52,878 nucleotides of DNA from a virus: IMG/VR virus record IMGVR_UViG_3300042099_000057, positions 1-52,878 of that record; one strand, written 5' to 3'. Positions 2,146-41,288 of the stretch are shown piece by piece; the first letter of the stretch is position 1; each line of letters starts with the position of its first letter. The notes below the pieces were generated by a model that saw only the letters and a program-made list of their open reading frames with translations, ran no database searches and had not been told where the DNA came from. A program made the position numbers and the translations under genes.

Positions 2146-2412
2146 ATGTCAATAATAGCTAAATATACGGAGCAACTCGTACATGACATTAGTTGTCTAG
2201 AGACTAAAAACGAAGGTTTAGAGAGGGAAAATCAACAACTAAAACGTCAACTTGCTCAGTCTAAATCTTCAGAAACAATGTACTACGAGAGTTGTAAAGA
2301 TCATAACAAAAAGAATAAAGAACTAATGGACTTTATAGCGACACTGCTATATAATGTAGGAACTCCTGTTAAACAGGAAATACTAAAATACCAACAAATA
2401 AAGGATATGTAA
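2146..2412 (+). CDS. hypothetical coiled-coil protein
   Basis: Residues 10-40 are a clear heptad-type coiled coil rich in Glu, Lys and Gln with regular Leu. No family recognised. It is preceded by the junction AAAGGATAACTAATG that recurs in this genome, and its stop overlaps the next start by one base (TAATG). Confidence 0.55.
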   Translation: MSIIAKYTEQLVHDISCLETKNEGLERENQQLKRQLAQSKSSETMYYESCKDHNKKNKELMDFIATLLYNVGTPVKQEILKYQQIKDM

Positions 2413-4901
2413 TGAAACATTTATTGAAACTATTAGCACTTAGTGCTTTATTAGCTACATCATCTTACGCAGCAGTAGCAAATATGAGTATATCAACTAC
2501 AGAATCAAGTATCAAAATTGACACATCTGGTTCAGTAGGCTCTACTACTATATACGTATGGAAGAATGGTAGATACTTTACTAAATTAACTGGTACAGAC
2601 TATTTACCGCTAGTTGATGCAACTTATAAGTTTCTTATGGTAGCTAAAGATAGCGACGGTAAAAAATATAAACTAGTAAAGAAAACAGTATCAGCTTCAG
2701 GAGCTGAAGAAGTTGTAAACGCTAAACCTACACTAGTTCTAACAGCAACAACTAGTGGTCAATCTGTAACAGTAGACTCATCACAATCTACAGACAGTGA
2801 CGGTACTATTGTACAACACAGAGGTTTCTTGTATAAGAATGGTAGATACTTTAAAGTACTTAATTCATCTAAAGAAACTATTGATGACCTTCCTGTAGCA
2901 GACTACAAAATCCTTTTCTATGTAATGGATGATAAAGGTGATAGATCTGCATACGGTAAAGAAGAATTCACTATCAAAGAAATTCCAGTAGTTGCTCCAG
3001 TTAGAATAGTAGGAACACCTGATTACACTCTAGGAACTCCTGGAACTAAAGACCTTAATCCAATCACAGCAGAATATAAAGCTGGAAACTTCTTAGAAAA
3101 AGTTAACGCTGCAGCTGCTTATGAGCAAGGTTGGACAGGGGCAGGTGTTAAAGTAGCTGTATTAGATACAGGTATTGATGCTGATCACAGTGATCTTGCT
3201 GATAACATCAAAGGTACATTTACTATGTATAGCGATTCAGGTGAAGATCTTCATGGACATGGTACGCACGTAGCAGGTATTATCGCAGCAACTAAGGATG
3301 ACGAAGGTATGCACGGTGTTGCTTACAATGCTGATATTATTAGTATCAAAGTACTAAGCAATTCAGGAAGTGGTTCATTAAGTACTATCACTGCAGGTAT
3401 TAAACTTGCAGCTGAACAAGACGCTAAAGTTGCTAACTTATCACTAGGTACAACTTATTGGAGTCCATCATACTACGCTAGTAGTGTAGAGGATATTAGA
3501 ACAGCTTTAAAAGCTGACACATCATTAATATTTGCAGCAGGTAATAATTCTGGTCAATGTAAGGATATGGGATATACTTCAACAGGTAAATGTAATTACC
3601 CAGCAGCTCTTCCGGCTTTCGAGGATTATGCTGATATGGTTGATGGGACATATGACGGAGCATTTATTGCAGTTGGATCAATTAGTGATTCATATAACTT
3701 TAATTACACTTCTGGGAACGGAGTTAACAAATCAACAGATGACACTCTTGCGTATTATTCTAACGCTGCAGGTATAACTAAAGACTGGTACATAGTAGCT
3801 CCAGGTGGAGATTTATTCACAGCATCTGGATCTGACGGTATGATTATGTCAACTAAATCATCTGACAGTGCGGATAGAATATACGATGAGGGTGACTACA
3901 ATTATATGCAGGGTACATCTATGGCAGCTCCAGTTGTTACAGGTGCTTTTGCTTTATTAGCTGAGAAATTCCCTTACCTAGTAGGTAGAGAAATCAGAGA
4001 CATTATGTTTGCTACAACTACTGACTTAGGTGAGGAAGGTGTTGATGATATTTATGGACATGGTCTATTAAATATTGAAAAAGCTATGCAACCAGTAGGT
4101 ACTATAAACATTCCTACAGGTGGATACATTACTTCTACAGCACCTAAATTCGATTCAAGCAAGACTCAGATTACATCTAGTTCTGCATTTGGATCAGCAC
4201 TTAGTATATCAGCACTGTCTAGCACATTAATTCTTGATGATTTCAACAGAGGTTATACTCTTGACATGACATCACAAGTAGCTAACACAGGATATGCATT
4301 TGATGCAGATTCTTACCAGCAAATGGAATTCTCTAACAGTATTATTATTGGATTAGACGAAGCATCACAATCAGCATCTATTGGTACTAGTATCAAGGGA
4401 TTCAAATTCATGTATGCTCAATCTAATGACTTATTCGGTACTACAGGTGAGGGTGCTATGAGCATCTCAGGTAAAACTCAGTATTTAACTATAGATACTC
4501 CAACTTACAACGGACTTACTGCATCAGTAACTTATGGTACAGCAGATGGACAAGTAGGTGGAATGTTTACAGATATTACTGCAGTTACAGGTATGGCAGC
4601 TAAACTAACTTATGTTTCAACTAACTTTAACGGTGGTATTAAACTACCTATGAGAGTTGATTCAGGATCAGTTACTTCAGTTGTACCAACTTCAAGAGCT
4701 ATGGATGGATCAATATCTAATTCAACTCAATCAACTTCACTAGCTCCTGCAGGTCAGGAAGTTAGTGTTTATGCAAATTATAACCACAGGTTAACTGATA
4801 ACTCTTCTCTAGAATTTACAGCAGACTACACTCAAGATCAAATGAATATTTCTGGAATGGATTCTAGTAGATTATCATTTAACCACATTACTAAATTTTA
4901 G
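2412..4901 (+). CDS. exported subtilisin-family (S8) serine protease, autotransporter-like
   Basis: Residues 1-20 are a signal peptide with likely cleavage after S-Y-A. Two Ig/PKD-like repeats follow (about 21-90 and 100-190), each carrying the same K-N-G-R-Y-F strand. The S8 catalytic domain (about 225-560) has all three catalytic residues in context: Asp252 (V-L-D-T-G-I-D), His283 (G-H-G-T-H-V-A-G) and Ser503 (G-T-S-M-A-A-P). The remaining 250 residues alternate polar and hydrophobic strands and end in Phe, as an outer-membrane barrel does. The layout resembles autotransporter proteases that cut surface or secreted proteins. It is by far the largest gene in this accessory block. A phage copy suggests alteration of the host surface or digestion of competitors, which is inference. 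Confidence 0.88.
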   Translation: MKHLLKLLALSALLATSSYAAVANMSISTTESSIKIDTSGSVGSTTIYVWKNGRYFTKLTGTDYLPLVDATYKFLMVAKDSDGKKYKLVKKTVSASGAEEVVNAKPTLVLTATTSGQSVTVDSSQSTDSDGTIVQHRGFLYKNGRYFKVLNSSKETIDDLPVADYKILFYVMDDKGDRSAYGKEEFTIKEIPVVAPVRIVGTPDYTLGTPGTKDLNPITAEYKAGNFLEKVNAAAAYEQGWTGAGVKVAVLDTGIDADHSDLADNIKGTFTMYSDSGEDLHGHGTHVAGIIAATKDDEGMHGVAYNADIISIKVLSNSGSGSLSTITAGIKLAAEQDAKVANLSLGTTYWSPSYYASSVEDIRTALKADTSLIFAAGNNSGQCKDMGYTSTGKCNYPAALPAFEDYADMVDGTYDGAFIAVGSISDSYNFNYTSGNGVNKSTDDTLAYYSNAAGITKDWYIVAPGGDLFTASGSDGMIMSTKSSDSADRIYDEGDYNYMQGTSMAAPVVTGAFALLAEKFPYLVGREIRDIMFATTTDLGEEGVDDIYGHGLLNIEKAMQPVGTINIPTGGYITSTAPKFDSSKTQITSSSAFGSALSISALSSTLILDDFNRGYTLDMTSQVANTGYAFDADSYQQMEFSNSIIIGLDEASQSASIGTSIKGFKFMYAQSNDLFGTTGEGAMSISGKTQYLTIDTPTYNGLTASVTYGTADGQVGGMFTDITAVTGMAAKLTYVSTNFNGGIKLPMRVDSGSVTSVVPTSRAMDGSISNSTQSTSLAPAGQEVSVYANYNHRLTDNSSLEFTADYTQDQMNISGMDSSRLSFNHITKF

Positions 4902-17428: not shown

Positions 17429-17575
17429 TACTCGGTAGCTCAGTGGTAGAGCGTCATCCAAAATCTGTAGCTCAACTGGTTAGAGCACTAGCTTAGTCTA
17501 GGGGTTCTAGGTTCAAATCCTAGCAGATTTACCATTACACGATGAAGGCCGTAGGTTCAATCCCTACTCGAGTAA
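17429..17575 (+). tRNA. tRNA-Val(TAC) interrupted by a complete tRNA-like insert
   Basis: If bases 17460-17534 are skipped, a standard 72-base tRNA remains: acceptor TACTCGG/TCGAGTA, D arm GCTC/GAGC, anticodon stem TCATC/GATGA, loop CTTACAC with anticodon TAC, T arm GTAGG/CCTAC, then A. CCA is not encoded. The 75-base insert falls between loop positions 32 and 33 and is itself tRNA-like. Whether the outer tRNA is ever joined is unknown. Confidence 0.7.
17461..17534 (+). tRNA. tRNA-like gene nested in the tRNA-Val anticodon loop
   Basis: Acceptor AAATCTG/CAGATTT, D arm GCTC/GAGC, T arm CTAGG/CCTAG with loop TTCAAAT, discriminator A and encoded CCA are all present. The anticodon arm is short: CTAG/CTAG closes a six-base loop CTTAGT instead of 5 bp and 7 bases, so the identity is unclear (TAG, Leu, if T at 17493 is position 33). 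It may be degenerate. Confidence 0.6.
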
Positions 17576-17580
17576 CCTAT

Positions 17581-17662
17581 TACCGTATAGCTCAGTCGGT
17601 AGAGCGCTTGCCTTAAAATGCAAACAAGCAAGATGTCTCAGGTTCGATTCCTGATATGGTAA
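17581..17662 (+). tRNA. tRNA with enlarged anticodon loop
   Basis: Acceptor TACCGTA/TATGGTA, D arm GCTC/GAGC, anticodon stem CTTGC/GCAAG, T arm TCAGG/CCTGA are intact, but the anticodon loop has 16 bases (17612-17627). Removing nine gives CTTACAA (Val, TAC) or CTTAAAA (Leu, TAA). A class II folding with TTGC/GCAA and a long variable arm would read TAA, Leu. Identity is left open. CCA is not encoded. Confidence 0.6.
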
Positions 17663-17705
17663 CCTTATGGCCAAATTGGCAACCACAAATAACAAAGGAA
17701 ATAAT

Positions 17706-22368: not shown

Positions 22369-22761
22369 ATGTTTACAAACCCGATCAACAAAAAGCAATA
22401 TTGCGTATCACAATGTGCTAAAGACAAATTCCAGAAACACATAGTTCCACTTTTTACGTGGACTGTAATAATTATAGCTACAAGTGTAGCTGTGTTTTTG
22501 TTTGGACTAATTACTCAACAAGTACAAGTATGGTTTCTTAGTGGATTAACTTCCCTATCCCTACTTAGCGTACTACCGGTATTTCACATTTTACTTACAG
22601 GATTAATTGCTGCAGCCTTCATTGCAGTTATTTTTATTATGTTAACTATAGTAGGTGTAGCACTTTACGAAGCTAACAATAAACTAAACCACTGGTGTAA
22701 CACTAAGTATGAGAGCAAATACAAGAAAGACTGTGTACTATTCGAGGAATGTACAGAATAA
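22369..22761 (+). CDS. putative holin (membrane protein before the lysozyme)
   Basis: 130 residues with strongly hydrophobic stretches at about 27-48, 52-70 and 72-98 and a charged tail with several Cys. Two or three helices fit. It stands directly before a lysozyme gene, the usual position of a holin. Holins have no shared motif, so the call rests on topology and position. Confidence 0.5.
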   Translation: MFTNPINKKQYCVSQCAKDKFQKHIVPLFTWTVIIIATSVAVFLFGLITQQVQVWFLSGLTSLSLLSVLPVFHILLTGLIAAAFIAVIFIMLTIVGVALYEANNKLNHWCNTKYESKYKKDCVLFEECTE

Positions 22762-22782
22762 CGTACAACCAAAGGAGATCAC

Positions 22783-23253
22783 ATGAAACTACTTTATATA
22801 CTAGGTATTATCCTGGCTATCACATATACTCAATTACGAGCTAACCCAACTGAGTTATCTCTTGAACTTATCAAGGACCATGAGGGATTCGTATCTTCAG
22901 TATACAGAGATGCTAATGGATATGCAATTGGCTACGGTACTAATTTATCTTACATAACTAAAGCCGAAGCTGAGTACTTACTAGTGTCACGACTATTCGT
23001 AGTTGACCAGGACCTAGATCGACGATTTCCCTGGTACTCTAATTTACCTTATGTACCTAAATCTATCCTACAGGATATGGTATATAATATGGGTATTAGT
23101 AGATTCAGCACTTTCAAGAAGATGCACACACAACTATCTAGACAAAATTGGGTCAAGGCTGCATTGGAAATGAAAGCATCACGTTGGTTCAAGCAAACTA
23201 AAACTAGAGGCGTCTATTTGTATAATATGATGCGCAATCACAAGGATAACTAA
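22783..23253 (+). CDS. phage lysozyme (GH24), N-terminal signal or anchor
   Basis: Muramidase of the T4 lysozyme type that cuts peptidoglycan. Glu34 (K-D-H-E-G-F) and Asp43 (Y-R-D-A-N-G-Y) correspond to the T4 pair Glu11/Asp20, and the G-Y-G-T turn follows. The third catalytic position, Thr26 in T4, appears to be Ala48, one residue being deleted there. Residues 1-20 are a hydrophobic signal or release-type anchor, so export may use the host Sec system. Strong site AAAGGAGATC. It follows the putative holin by 21 bases, and its last residues K-D-N are encoded by the ribosome site of the next gene. Confidence 0.82.
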   Translation: MKLLYILGIILAITYTQLRANPTELSLELIKDHEGFVSSVYRDANGYAIGYGTNLSYITKAEAEYLLVSRLFVVDQDLDRRFPWYSNLPYVPKSILQDMVYNMGISRFSTFKKMHTQLSRQNWVKAALEMKASRWFKQTKTRGVYLYNMMRNHKDN

Positions 23254-24132: not shown

Positions 24133-24657
24133 ATGCCACGCAAACATGGAGTCTTTCTTGGGCGTTTTCAGCCCTTTCACACCGGTCATCAATCTATCAT
24201 TGATCACATTATCGCAGACGGGTTAGAGCCTGTAATATTAGCTGGATCAGCGCAAGAATCATGCAATGTAAAGAACCCTTACTCGGTAGAGGATCGTACA
24301 TCTATGATTAACCTTGTATATCCAAACATCAAAGTAATTTCTATAGAAGACAGAAACTGCTGGGATGAATGGTATTCATTACTGAAGTCAACACTACAAG
24401 AACAAATAAGTGAAGACTTGGACGAAATAACAATCTATCTGCACGAAAAGTTGGAAGACCTACAAAACTTCACTTTTAGGGGTGTAGATTATCTTGATGA
24501 GTCATATTGTAAGATGTACGAAATCGACGGCTTACACACAACTAGTTTACCTATATCTGATATACCGATTAGAGCGAAGTTAATTAGAGAAGACCTAGAA
24601 GCTAACAAACACTATTTACACCCAAGTGTGTATAATTATATAAAGGATAACAAATGA
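24133..24657 (+). CDS. NMN adenylyltransferase (NadM/NadR-type)
   Basis: Joins NMN and ATP to make NAD+. Residues 5-20 carry the nucleotidyltransferase signature G-R-F-Q-P-F-H-T-G-H; N-P-Y-S-V-E-D-R-T-S-M-I follows near 50, and the C-terminal I-S-D-I-P-I-R corresponds to the I-S-x-T-x-I-R site with the Thr changed. Length (174) suits the archaeal/NadM type. Its end overlaps the nicotinamide phosphoribosyltransferase start by 4 bases, so the two steps from nicotinamide to NAD+ are made together. Confidence 0.85.
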   Translation: MPRKHGVFLGRFQPFHTGHQSIIDHIIADGLEPVILAGSAQESCNVKNPYSVEDRTSMINLVYPNIKVISIEDRNCWDEWYSLLKSTLQEQISEDLDEITIYLHEKLEDLQNFTFRGVDYLDESYCKMYEIDGLHTTSLPISDIPIRAKLIREDLEANKHYLHPSVYNYIKDNK

Positions 24658-26099
24658 AAAACAACATCTTAAACCTAGCCGATAGCTACAAATACTCCCA
24701 TGCTAACCAATACCCAGCTAATACAGTATCTATGTATGACTACATGGAATCTAGAGGTGGTGTATACCCAGCAACAGTATTTGTAGGACTTCAATACTAT
24801 ATTAAACAGTATTTAATGAGTATACCTACGCAAGAAGAAGTAGATAAAACTAGGGACAGGTGTCAAGCGCACGGTGTGCCATTTGATTATGACGGTTGGT
24901 CTTATATCGTGCAATTAGGTTACTTACCTATTAAGATCAAAGCAGTTGATGAGGGATCGCTAGTCCTAACTAAACATGTACTTATGACTATTGAATCTAC
25001 AGACCCTAAAGTACCATGGATAGCAGGCTTTACTGAAACGATACTTATGAAATTATGGTATCCAACTACGATAGCCACTAAATCTTACTATGCTAAACAA
25101 ATGTTAGAAAAATACGGTTCACCTGAATGGGCACAATTTGCATATCACAATTTTGGAGACAGAGGTTCTAGTTCTGTTGAAGCTGCAGCTATCGGCGGAT
25201 TTGCACACTCTACACAATTTATGGGAACTGATAACTTCAACTCATTAGACTTCTGTGAAGAATTTTACGGAGCAGGCATCGCTGAGTCATATTCAGTATT
25301 TGCTACTGAGCACAGCTCAACTACTTCATATGGTAGAGATAATGAAGAACAATTTGTATATGATCAATTATTAACTAACCCAGATGCGCCTATTATGTCA
25401 TTCGTGGCAGATAGCTATGACGTATATGCATTCACTGAATTCTGTACCCATCCAGACTCTAGGATTAGAAAACTAATCGAATCTAGACCAAATCAGAAAT
25501 TCGTCTTAAGACCTGATAGTGGTCATCCTATTAATGTCATCAAGCAAATGTTAGCTATAATGGTCAACAATGATTGTTTTGATACAGATATAGAAGGCAA
25601 AGCACTTTCAACAAACTTTGGTATTTTATGGGGTGATGGTATTACACCGCACACTATAGAAACTATTCTTAAAACATTTACTACTTATGAAACAATTCCA
25701 GCACCAGATCAAACATCAACACAACCTTTTGCTGCTGAAAACTTTGTATTTGGCTCAGGTGGTGATTTAATGCAGAATGTTAATAGAGATACTCAAAAGT
25801 TTGCTATTAAATGTAGTTCTATTACTAGACGGTATGATGACCCAATCTGTAAAGATGGTCAATCAGGATACATTTATGAAGACATAGACGTCTACAAAGA
25901 CCCAATCACGGACCATGGTAAAGCATCCAAGAAAGGTAAAGTAACTACTTGGTTCGATACTGAAACTAAGGAATACATCGCTGGAATTGTTGGTAAGCAA
26001 CCAAATATGCATTGCGTAGAGGCACTGAGTGTAGTGTTTGAGAATGGTAAACTGCTTAAAGAAACAACATTAGCTGAAATCAGAAACTGGGGTAACTAA
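24654..26099 (+). CDS. nadV: nicotinamide phosphoribosyltransferase
   Basis: Converts nicotinamide and PRPP to NMN, the first step of NAD+ salvage. The protein opens with the family signature D-S-Y-K-Y-S-H-x-x-Q-Y-P at 10-21 and carries the V-L-R-P-D-S-G phosphate site near 280 and L-W-G-D-G-I near 325. At 481 residues it is full length. It is coupled to the NMN adenylyltransferase, and the Nudix gene follows one gene later. Phages with this pair can rebuild NAD+ when host defence enzymes destroy it. Confidence 0.92.
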   Translation: MKNNILNLADSYKYSHANQYPANTVSMYDYMESRGGVYPATVFVGLQYYIKQYLMSIPTQEEVDKTRDRCQAHGVPFDYDGWSYIVQLGYLPIKIKAVDEGSLVLTKHVLMTIESTDPKVPWIAGFTETILMKLWYPTTIATKSYYAKQMLEKYGSPEWAQFAYHNFGDRGSSSVEAAAIGGFAHSTQFMGTDNFNSLDFCEEFYGAGIAESYSVFATEHSSTTSYGRDNEEQFVYDQLLTNPDAPIMSFVADSYDVYAFTEFCTHPDSRIRKLIESRPNQKFVLRPDSGHPINVIKQMLAIMVNNDCFDTDIEGKALSTNFGILWGDGITPHTIETILKTFTTYETIPAPDQTSTQPFAAENFVFGSGGDLMQNVNRDTQKFAIKCSSITRRYDDPICKDGQSGYIYEDIDVYKDPITDHGKASKKGKVTTWFDTETKEYIAGIVGKQPNMHCVEALSVVFENGKLLKETTLAEIRNWGN

Positions 26100-37867: not shown

Positions 37868-38579
37868 AGTAGACTGGGTACACTATACAACGTTACCTCA
37901 AGTCAAACAAGCCCTGGCTAATCTACCAGCAAATAAACCAATCGCTGCCGATTTTGAAGCTGCCTCTATTTACTCTAAGGAGGAAGTAGTAGCAGCTAAA
38001 GATTACCGTGAGGAACTTGATGTGCCCTTTCGTGATCCGGAATTAGTATATCTTAACCAAGTTACTACATCAGACGGGTTATCACACCCATCATTAATAC
38101 AGATAACTCACATGTCAATTGCTACATCTGAATATGATTCATTTGTTATAGTATTTAACCCGGAAATTCACGAGTATGTACTTAACTGGATAGTTACAAC
38201 GGAAATTAAGCAAATATGGCATAACTTAGGTTACGATGGTAAATTAATTAGATATTTCACTGGTCGATTCCCTAAGAATTATGAAGATACGCAGATCTTA
38301 GCTAAAACATTAATCAACCACTGTGATATTAGTAAAGCACTTACAGGACTGAAGCATTTAGCAGGATCCGTATACGGTGAATGGTCTATTGCCGATGAGC
38401 TAGAATTTACTGAAGCTAACAAAATGGACCCTAAGATGCTTGAATACGCAGCTGTGGATGCATGTGCAACAATGTATTTATACAATGATATGAAGAAACA
38501 AATAAAGGAGCTTAACAATGAGCAACCAACAGAACCGGCCTTGGATGTGTCTACCACAACCGGCCCCTTCAGTATATGA
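37851..38579 (+). CDS. DEDDy 3'-5' exonuclease (separate PolA proofreading domain)
   Basis: The four acidic residues are in place: Asp34 and Glu36 (A-A-D-F-E-A), Asp129 (H-N-L-G-Y-D-G) and Tyr199/Asp203 (Y-A-A-V-D-A). This is the proofreading half of a family A polymerase. Elsewhere it is fused to the polymerase; here it is a separate gene whose last 62 bases overlap the polymerase start in another frame. Together the two would be about 850 residues, the size of T5-type polymerase. Starts on a junction AAAGGATAACTAATG. Confidence 0.82.
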   Translation: MNPFRKVDWVHYTTLPQVKQALANLPANKPIAADFEAASIYSKEEVVAAKDYREELDVPFRDPELVYLNQVTTSDGLSHPSLIQITHMSIATSEYDSFVIVFNPEIHEYVLNWIVTTEIKQIWHNLGYDGKLIRYFTGRFPKNYEDTQILAKTLINHCDISKALTGLKHLAGSVYGEWSIADELEFTEANKMDPKMLEYAAVDACATMYLYNDMKKQIKELNNEQPTEPALDVSTTTGPFSI

Positions 38580-39580
38580 CCCATCTGAATTACAACTAGA
38601 CTACTTCTATGAAAACATAGCAAAACCACTTATTGAAGATACGAACAAAATCATGTCAAATGGCTTACCTATAGACATGGAACGTGTAGCTGAATTGGAA
38701 TCTACTCTTGATGAGGTACTATCTGGTGTAAAGGAAATTATAGCTAATAACCAAATCATAATCGACTTTCATGCGCAGAAATATCCTAAAGTACGAGATG
38801 AGTACTTAAAAGAAATCAACTCTAAACTACGTAATGTACAGTACTTTATGAAGACATTCAAGAACGGTAACACTATTCATAGGTCTTTCTACATGGAAGA
38901 ATTTCGTAAACGCTACCCAAAATTTAAACTAACTCCGCCAACGGACATGCTAGATTTAGGTATTCCTAAATGGACAGCTAAATTAGTTAAAGCCTACTTA
39001 CAGATATGCCCTGAACTGCAATCAGTAATGGATAAAACTGTGCCAGAAGCGGATCCAATAGCTATCGAAGCTATGAATCAATTAGCTAGAGCCAAAGTTA
39101 AAGCAGACTCAATTAACCAACGATACCGTGAGCAGATCAAAACAGTGTCTATGGATAAACTTCTACCTGAATTTTTACCATCATCACCACAACAAAAAGC
39201 AGAACTATTTGCTTGGTTAGGTCTTGAATCTGAAACAACATCTAAAACTACAGGTGACCCATCATGGCCTCGTGATCAAATAGAGCGAATTAACCATGAA
39301 ACTAAGGATCCAGTTCTTGAGGAAATAACTCAAGCCTTTATCGATTTCTCATTCGGAGCAATTGTAAAGAATAACTTCATCGAAGCATTTTATAAATATT
39401 CAGTAGACGGTAAACTCTACGGAGATTACAAACTACTAGGAGCTAAATCAGCTCGTTATACGTCACAGAGGCCGAATATGCTTAATATGCCTTCAACTGG
39501 GTCAATATACGCTAAGCCTATTAAAAAGTGCTTTACAGCTCCTCCAGGGTACCTAGTATTCTCGATAGATTATGCAGCGT
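38518..39580 (+). CDS. DNA polymerase A, exon 1
   Basis: Begins with ATG at 38518 behind AAAGGAGC. Residues 1-354 hold the thumb and the start of the palm, with S-A-R-Y-T-S-Q-R-P-N-M-L-N-M-P near 320-335 and motif A, D-Y-A-A, with the metal-binding Asp at 351. The frame meets a stop at 39587-39589 inside the intron. Joining T at 39580 to T at 40522 restores D-Y-A-A-L-E-D-R-V-I-A-N-L-S, the expected motif A. The spliced protein would be 609 residues and lacks its own proofreading domain, which is the gene just before. Confidence 0.85.
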
Positions 39581-40521
39581 TAACATAAGTTACACTTAAG
39601 GTAAATACCCCTATAATTCGACTACACAAAAAGGATTACTATGGTATTTGAACAAAAACAATTTACAAAAATAAATGGGTATAGTGACTATTACCTCTGT
39701 AGGGAGACTACAGAGGTACTATCACTCAAAAAACGAAAAAACACAATAGACGGAACTTCTAAAATACTTAAACAAGTAAACAATAGTAAAAATACTAGTA
39801 ACAACTATTATATAGTTACATTAGTAGACAATAGCGGTTCTCGTAGAAATAGACCTGTACATAGACTTATGTGTGAAACTTTTTTACCTAATTTGGAAAA
39901 TAAGGCACATGTAAACCACATCGATGGTAACAAGCTAAATAACTGCTTAACTAACCTAGAATGGGCTACTGAGCAGGAGAATTCTCAACATGCAGTTGAT
40001 ACTGGGTTAACTACTCATGATCACTGCTCTAAAGAGATACACCAGTACACTAAATCTGGTGAGTTTATTGCTACCTATTGTAGCGATAGGGAAGCTACTC
40101 GCCAAACTAATGTGCCTTTTCAAAATATATCCAAAGTCACTCGTGGGTTACGTAAATCCGCAGGTGGCTATTTTTGGTCTCGAACCTTAATTAACTAGCG
40201 CCTGTACGCAGTAATGTGTACAGCAAACTCATCGAATTCAGGGAAACCCGTAGTATTAATTTACCGGCAATCCTGAGCGAAGCCTCTTCGGAGGAACGTG
40301 CAACGACTATCCCTTTGCAGGGAGTACACCCAAGTGGGTGGAAGTGGTGAGCATCCTACATGGATGATGATATAGTCTAGTCTGCATGGAAACATGCAGG
40401 AGTTCACTTCGCTTATAGAGTTCCAAACGAGTCAGCATCCTCCGGGTTAGTTTGATTTCCTGTAACGCTGTAAGCGAAGCAAGAACCGGCACAGCCTAAC
40501 GAGCTGTGTTGAATATAAACG
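39581..40521 (+). ncRNA. group I intron in the DNA polymerase gene
   Basis: 941 bases. The proposed borders obey the group I rule: exon 1 ends in T, the intron ends in G, and the join restores the protein. The core is visible after the endonuclease gene: AATCCTGAGC near 40270, GTGCAACGACTATCCC near 40300, GATATAGTC near 40370, all close to T4 td-type sequences, with hairpins CTGTAC/GTACAG (40202), CCTC/GAGG and CTGCATG/CATGCAG. It carries an HNH homing endonuclease, so it is probably mobile. Confidence 0.87.
39641..40198 (+). CDS. intron-encoded HNH homing endonuclease
   Basis: 185 residues. The N terminus (I-N-G-Y-S-D-Y-Y-L-C-R) matches the NUMOD4 module, the centre (V-H-R-L-M-C-E-T-F ... 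H-V-N-H-I-D-G-N-K-L-N-N-C-L-T-N-L-E-W) is the HNH site, and the C terminus (K-S-G-E-F-I-A-T-Y ... A-T-R-Q-T-N-V) is a NUMOD1-like DNA-binding module. It should cut intron-less copies of the polymerase gene to spread the intron. Ribosome site AAAAGGATTAC. Confidence 0.9.
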   Translation: MVFEQKQFTKINGYSDYYLCRETTEVLSLKKRKNTIDGTSKILKQVNNSKNTSNNYYIVTLVDNSGSRRNRPVHRLMCETFLPNLENKAHVNHIDGNKLNNCLTNLEWATEQENSQHAVDTGLTTHDHCSKEIHQYTKSGEFIATYCSDREATRQTNVPFQNISKVTRGLRKSAGGYFWSRTLIN

Positions 40522-41288
40522 TAGAAGATAGAGTTATAGCTAATCTTTCTGGGGATAACAATAAAATCGCAGTATTCTCTGAAGGCTTAGATGGCCACTC
40601 ATTAGCCGCTACATACTACTACCCGGATAGGATAGCAGACATGGTTGGAGAATTTACTGATAACAAGGAAGCTTCTAGACTATTCAAAAAGCTTACTAAG
40701 ACATCGGAAGAAGCCGGAGCACTTAGACAAGAGTCTAAACCTGTAACCTTCAAATTGGCTTATGGGGGCTTCCCTGATGTTGATAAAGGTGGTACTATTA
40801 CTCAGGAAATCTTTGATAACTACCATAACAAGATGTATCCAAATATATCAGCATTCCGTAATAAGGTAATCGATAAAGTTAAACAAACTGGGTACACTCA
40901 CATAGGATTAGGTCTTAGGCTTTATTCTGATACACCAGACAAAGACTCAAGAACGCTATTTAACGCTAATTCACAATTTTGGTCAATACTAACTGCTATT
41001 TCAATTAATGAGTTACACCATAGACAAGCAGAAGCTAAAATACCTGAATCGGACTTATACGTCACGTCGACTATTTATGATTCAATTTATGGAATAATCA
41101 AAGCTGATCCAGCCTTAATTAAATGGCTAAATAACAACTTAGTTGAAATTATGGTGAAGGATTTTATGGATAATCAAATAGTACATAACGAAGCTAACCT
41201 AGAAATAGGCCCTGACTGGGCTAGTCAAACTGAACTACCAAATAACTGCTCTACGGAGGAAATTAAACAAATAATGAAGGAATTATAA
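40522..41288 (+). CDS. DNA polymerase A, exon 2
   Basis: Continues motif A with L-E-D-R-V-I-A-N-L-S-G-D, then motif B S-K-P-V-T-F-K-L-A-Y-G-G (catalytic Lys and Tyr-Gly) and motif C S-T-I-Y-D-S-I-Y. Motif C reads Y-D-S where many family A enzymes have H-D-E, but the metal-binding Asp is kept. The open frame extends back into the intron to 40506 without a real start. The stop overlaps the primase gene by one base. Confidence 0.85.

Follow-up and report, generated by a model that had tools for sequence, protein, structure and literature searches.

Architecture of the gene

The window, by which we mean the whole analysed stretch of 52,878 bases, is an IMG/VR virus record classed as linear and therefore perhaps a fragment. 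At 2412-4901 on the + strand, exactly where the original prediction had placed it, lies an ORF that starts with ATG and encodes a protein of 829 residues (P0001). Since its start shares bases with the preceding ORF, which ends at 2412 (ATGTAATG), and AAAGGAT is found a few bases 5' of it, P0001 is a credible gene. Its features, all on the + strand, are as follows.

2412-4901, + strand: P0001, predicted 829-aa exported subtilase with a C-terminal outer-membrane-barrel-like domain (ORF, Peptidase_S8 match, AlphaFold2 models)
2412-2471, + strand: Sec signal peptide, residues 1-20, MKHLLKLLALSALLATSSYA (sequence; hydrophobic window 2.32, net charge +1)
2496-2966, + strand: two tandem beta-rich repeats, approximately residues 29-97 and 119-185 (repeat alignment)
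3138-4064, + strand: Peptidase_S8 catalytic domain, residues 243-551, with D252, H283, N378 and S503 (Pfam)
4065-4340, + strand: linker between protease and barrel, approximately residues 552-643, including the conserved LILDDFNR (invariant columns D609 and R613)
4344-4898, + strand: predicted 12-strand outer-membrane beta-barrel, residues 645-829, ending in Phe (AlphaFold2, Foldseek, terminal-aromatic rule)

The first 20 residues have a basic start, a hydrophobic core and an AxA-like end, and by eye and by the hydropathy and charge pattern they form a signal of the classical Sec type, in line with the signal peptide proposed earlier. No lipobox is present in this plain Sec signal, unlike in the lipidated subtilases of the NalP/SphB1 type. 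The two tandem repeats that follow are real: they align with a local score of 85, whereas shuffled sequences average 26.5 (sd 4.9) and none of 2000 shuffles reached that score. The "Ig/PKD-like" label once given to them, in contrast, gained no support: Pfam gave no match at E<1, and no sequence in the PDB matched at an E better than 0.03. AlphaFold2 modelled residues 1-206 without confidence.

A complete subtilase domain

Residues 243-551 match Peptidase_S8 (PF00082) over the entire model (1-288 of 288, E 1.3e-54), and the domain was modelled confidently by AlphaFold2 in the full protein with 35 sequences. D252, H283, the oxyanion N378 and S503 all sit in canonical motifs and are invariant across 35 aligned sequences. 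The full catalytic triad of the original prediction is thus present, and P0001 has the domain, the Asp/His/Ser triad and the oxyanion Asn that define a peptidase S8. In the same alignment, D609 and R613 of the linker motif LILDDFNR are also invariant columns.

A C-terminal domain that likely forms an outer-membrane barrel

P0001 ends in ...SFNHITKF, the C-terminal Phe having been read correctly from the start. In the full-length AlphaFold2 model (35 sequences), the linker is in part of low pLDDT and is followed by a C-terminal all-beta domain spanning residues from about 645 to 827, with pLDDT mostly 75-95. Modelling of the C-terminus alone (39 sequences) gave twelve long antiparallel strands, in which the pLDDT is mostly 85-96, against 80 for the whole model; structure prediction of this region thus returned a barrel-like model rather than none. 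The last predicted strand stops at residue 827 of 829, two residues short of the terminal Phe.

When the domain was compared with the PDB by Foldseek, 45 of the 50 best matches were named outer-membrane porins or transporters; besides porins, the top 50 include FadL-type proteins and further outer-membrane barrels. These matches are weak, with a best E of 3.8e-3, none below 0.001, and a TM of about 0.3. No autotransporter barrel occurred among the 50 best PDB matches, and no sequence relative of the domain was found in the PDB. Neither P0001 nor its 34 relatives nor ten bacterial relatives matched the Autotransporter domain PF03797 at E<=1, so that, judged by sequence, the predicted barrel is not a Pfam autotransporter domain. 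The C-terminal alignment of relatives is too divergent for a pattern scan, and profile comparison of the C-terminus with this alignment is uninformative because it includes the query itself. Together, the models suggest that the C-terminus of P0001 is likely an outer-membrane barrel.

A family of tailed subtilases in uncultured phages

When P0001 alone was used as the query, scans of viral_contigs and genome_contigs returned no relative. A profile-guided scan of IMG/VR viral contigs yielded 393 relatives, 80 of which were kept; their reading frames were extracted and compared together with P0001. Proteins with 230-480 residues after the catalytic Ser were designated tailed, a grouping by tail length and not by signal. 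This group comprises P0001 and 40 other non-identical phage subtilases (n=41; identical tails were removed and near-copies are still counted).

The C-terminal residue is aromatic in 40 of the 41 tailed proteins (F in 37, W in two, Y in one). The sole exception, L051, carries an extension. An N-terminal signal is present in all 41, comprising 20 lipoboxes and 21 hydrophobic signals of Sec type, as scored by a simple hydropathy and motif test with a hydropathy cut of 2.0. Thirty of the 41 pass this cut and the remaining 11 narrowly miss it; of these, ten have a lipobox, and L049 scores 1.98. Among the tail-less phage subtilases from the same search, by contrast, neither an aromatic end (0/25) nor a signal (0/25) was seen. 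Of all the evidence for an outer-membrane domain in the tail, this contrast weighs most. The signal of P0001, its porin-like all-beta model and its terminal Phe point the same way, as does the pairing of a signal with an aromatic end in the phage relatives, and predicted export of P0001 to the outer membrane is well supported.

A soluble domain that precedes a barrel does not fix the side on which it lies. One alternative is thus that P0001 is anchored in the outer membrane with its subtilase facing the periplasm, where it would degrade envelope proteins, for example to aid lysis or to disable proteins that serve in envelope stress or defence. The lipoboxes of 20 of the 41 family members might tether the N-terminus to the inner leaflet of the outer membrane. 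However, NalP and SphB1, which have been characterised and are similarly built, work at the cell surface, and we consider a periplasmic orientation rather unlikely.

The tailed subtilases are not confined to one kind of phage. The N4-like primase of the window was found in none of the 33 other records searched, and among the records checked the T4-type capsid protein Gp23 occurs on the contigs of only three relatives, two of which also carry a terminase; the contig of another relative, L041, carries a phage DNA polymerase. By these markers, the other phages are not N4-like and some of them are T4-like, and a P0001-type gene was rejected as a marker of one phage lineage.

The genes identified next to the relatives encode GTP cyclohydrolase, thymidine kinase, QueE, MetK, nucleotide-sugar epimerase, cysteine dioxygenase and phosphoribosyltransferase, and are mostly auxiliary-metabolism genes, not tail genes. 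One protein flanking L051 weakly matches a virion protein profile. These neighbours bear on a possible virion role, in which P0001 would be a tail or spike protease digesting host surface layers at entry. Enzymes on phage tails do occur, and as the window has no structural module, linkage gives no direct check. However, Sec or lipoprotein signals run throughout the tailed family, the neighbours of the relatives are of the kind just listed, and the terminal Phe and porin-like model also argue against packaging in virions. The family signals and the metabolic neighbourhoods make such a tail protease, the alternative named by the original prediction, improbable.

In five of the relatives (L011, L013, L015, L021 and L028), a gene for a protein of approximately 190 aa, to which no function was assigned, lies just upstream of the subtilase; the product from L015 has no PHROG or Pfam match. 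MetK is also encoded by many of the phages with this gene pair.

Among 50,697 phage records, P0001 matched 51, never over more than about 44% of the query; the matches listed all lie over the protease part. The family member L027 matched only the record of Pseudomonas phage Y5 (L002, OQ572407.1, UNVERIFIED). There the gene lies beside bacterial metabolic genes and resembles the bacterial autotransporter EprS, and Y5 was rejected as a phage relative; the record looks contaminated. Apart from this bacterial DNA, the tailed form was absent from the 50,697 records. A full-length structural match was found in BFVD, namely A0A6J5TBB6 from an uncultured Caudovirales, which is annotated only as an S8/S53 peptidase. 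No phage-encoded autotransporter of this kind was found in the literature searched. As far as we found, proteins with the layout of P0001 have thus been deposited yet not described.

Bacterial relatives and origin

Bacterial relatives share the layout of signal, S8 domain and aromatic-ended tail. The best relative of the tail comes from a Sulfuricurvum MAG (L086; 33% identity over 1-308 of 318). L086 aligns with residues 283 to 819 of P0001, barrel included, at about 29% identity, and lies in a chromosome-like setting next to HD-GYP, HipA and response-regulator genes. Most alphaproteobacterial relatives end in F or W. A Campylobacterota host for the phage is hinted at, weakly, by two pointers only, namely the best relative of the barrel and a GC content of about 36%; of 298 Campylobacterota genomes, only 3 were found to carry a relative.

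In the tree, the 20 sampled phage relatives form one clade (99/97), which points to long retention in phages. P0001 falls outside this clade on a long branch, while forcing it into the clade was not rejected (p-AU 0.234), so that phages may have gained the gene either once or twice. The trees hint that P0001 may have been acquired independently. The position outside the clade of other phage subtilases, together with the existence of bacterial relatives, is what would be expected if P0001 were a recent bacterial passenger gene with no role in the phage. Against this stand the intact 829-codon frame and catalytic residues, the diverse clade of phage homologues, and the p-AU value, with which clade membership of P0001 is still compatible; we regard a passenger gene as very improbable.

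The phage genome carrying the gene

The primase of the window is 45% identical over 97-99% to those of Alteromonas phages R22Y and PT11-V19 and 34% identical to those of the AD45 phages, all of which we take to be N4-like. The DNA polymerase is phrog_23226, and a Dda-like helicase, a ligase, a ribonucleotide reductase, an NAD-salvage pair, an AAA ATPase and a large conserved phage protein with no function assigned are also encoded. No virion structural gene was identified among the window ORFs searched. The longest ORF is that of 829 aa, and none has the size of the giant virion RNA polymerase of N4-like phages. With its N4-like primase and replication module, we read the window, from its gene content, as the early/replication part of an N4-like phage. 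Two further records, L172 and L173 (IMG/VR 3300042104_000041 and _000105), encode the primase and the 664-aa protein of the window at 100% identity and are probably, by these sequences, the same phage.

Several other loci of the window, all on the + strand, are worth recording.

17461-17664, + strand: two tRNA-like matches with odd anticodons
18689-19555, + strand: SPFH/Band_7 lipoprotein with a lipobox (FTGC), phrog_200, a second envelope-directed protein of the phage
22369-23253, + strand: membrane protein followed by a phage lysozyme (PF00959) with an N-terminal signal or anchor, likely a lysis cassette
24133-26099, + strand: nucleotidyltransferase and nicotinamide phosphoribosyltransferase, the phage NAD-salvage pair
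38518-41288, + strand: DNA polymerase whose two ORFs flank an HNH endonuclease (39641-40198), as if a homing element had split the gene

The NAD-salvage genes, and the metabolic genes identified next to some relatives, would fit an auxiliary metabolic gene, that is, a secreted protease with which the infected cell harvests amino acids from external protein. However, neither a barrel nor a lipid anchor is necessary for scavenging, and no linked genes for peptide or amino-acid uptake were identified. Nutrient harvest is thus an unlikely purpose. Among the alternatives, we give most weight to a periplasm-facing protease, followed by nutrient harvest, then a virion role and lastly a functionless passenger gene.

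Discussion

We propose that P0001 is a phage-acquired, autotransporter-like surface protease of the infected Gram-negative cell, which processes or sheds host surface proteins like NalP and SphB1; we put the probability of this model at about two in three. The Sec signal would carry P0001 into the periplasm, and the C-terminal 12-strand barrel with its terminal Phe would insert in the outer membrane. The subtilase would then be displayed on the cell surface, if the outward orientation is right, and may cleave or shed host surface proteins in the NalP/SphB1 manner. The likeliest benefit to the phage would be the loss of receptors, or of other surface proteins, by which further phages would be trapped or let in, to our minds the most attractive of the possible gains. 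The earlier proposal of a surface-displayed phage protease is supported in part: the signal, the model, the Phe and the family contrast support export and an outer-membrane barrel, while exposure at the surface rather than in the periplasm is suggested by analogy with NalP/SphB1-type proteins. The roles suggested in that proposal, in changing receptors, blocking superinfection or feeding the host, are hypothetical.

The closest known systems are the subtilisin-like autotransporters (Group 15: NalP, SphB1, EprS and Ssp; type Va), which share with P0001 the signal, the N-terminal S8 domain and, as predicted for P0001, the C-terminal barrel. The known members process surface proteins; among them NalP and SphB1, which cleave such proteins, have a lipidated signal (PMC9289746, PMC9977779). 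P0001 differs in being phage-borne and in its predicted barrel, which has no Pfam autotransporter match and is not nearest to autotransporter barrels by Foldseek. In addition, a linker of about 92 residues replaces the predicted ~200-aa beta-helix, and two extra repeats stand at the N-terminus. Bacterial S8 proteins with the same kind of C-terminal domain, including L086 and those of many Alphaproteobacteria (for example L089 and L095), likewise have a signal (lipobox or Sec), an S8 domain and a tail that ends in F or W; L086 differs in its chromosome-like setting, and no match to the N-terminal repeats was seen in it. Other phage subtilases (the Bacillus phage type, intracellular-type proteins of about 300 aa; phrog_3677) have the S8 domain in common at about 30% identity, but neither an export signal nor a barrel is present in the 25 tail-less ones that were compared.

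Superinfection-exclusion proteins of many phages prevent useless adsorption to infected cells and debris, and Llp of T5 inactivates the host receptor, thereby stopping superinfection and useless adsorption (PMC9586334). Like the proposed role of P0001, Llp is phage-encoded and acts on the host outer membrane (PMC9586334), but it is a small receptor-blocking lipoprotein with no enzymatic activity, and the analogy is functional only. Outer-membrane autotransporter anchor domains have been reported in N4-like phages as YadA-like anchors (PMC10654107); these are trimeric adhesin anchors with no protease. If the receptor-destroying reading is true, P0001 would be the enzymatic counterpart of receptor-blocking proteins such as Llp.

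P0001 is a new phage-borne form of a bacterial type, and its interest lies mainly in the recurrence of the layout across unrelated uncultured phages. Distant relatives occur in many other uncultured viruses, and trimming of the host cell surface may therefore be routine among them. It is tempting to speculate further, as a tentative idea only, that outer-membrane subtilases are a widespread and long-standing phage family of receptor-destroying enzymes, displayed by infected cells to shave proteins off their surface, which would prevent superinfection and release progeny from debris.

Subtilase autotransporters are known from bacteria, whereas the isolated phages found here have subtilases that align over the protease part only. 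A phage clade with an export signal, a subtilase and an outer-membrane barrel would imply proteolytic remodelling of the host surface by uncultured phages, and superinfection exclusion via receptor cleavage becomes directly testable.
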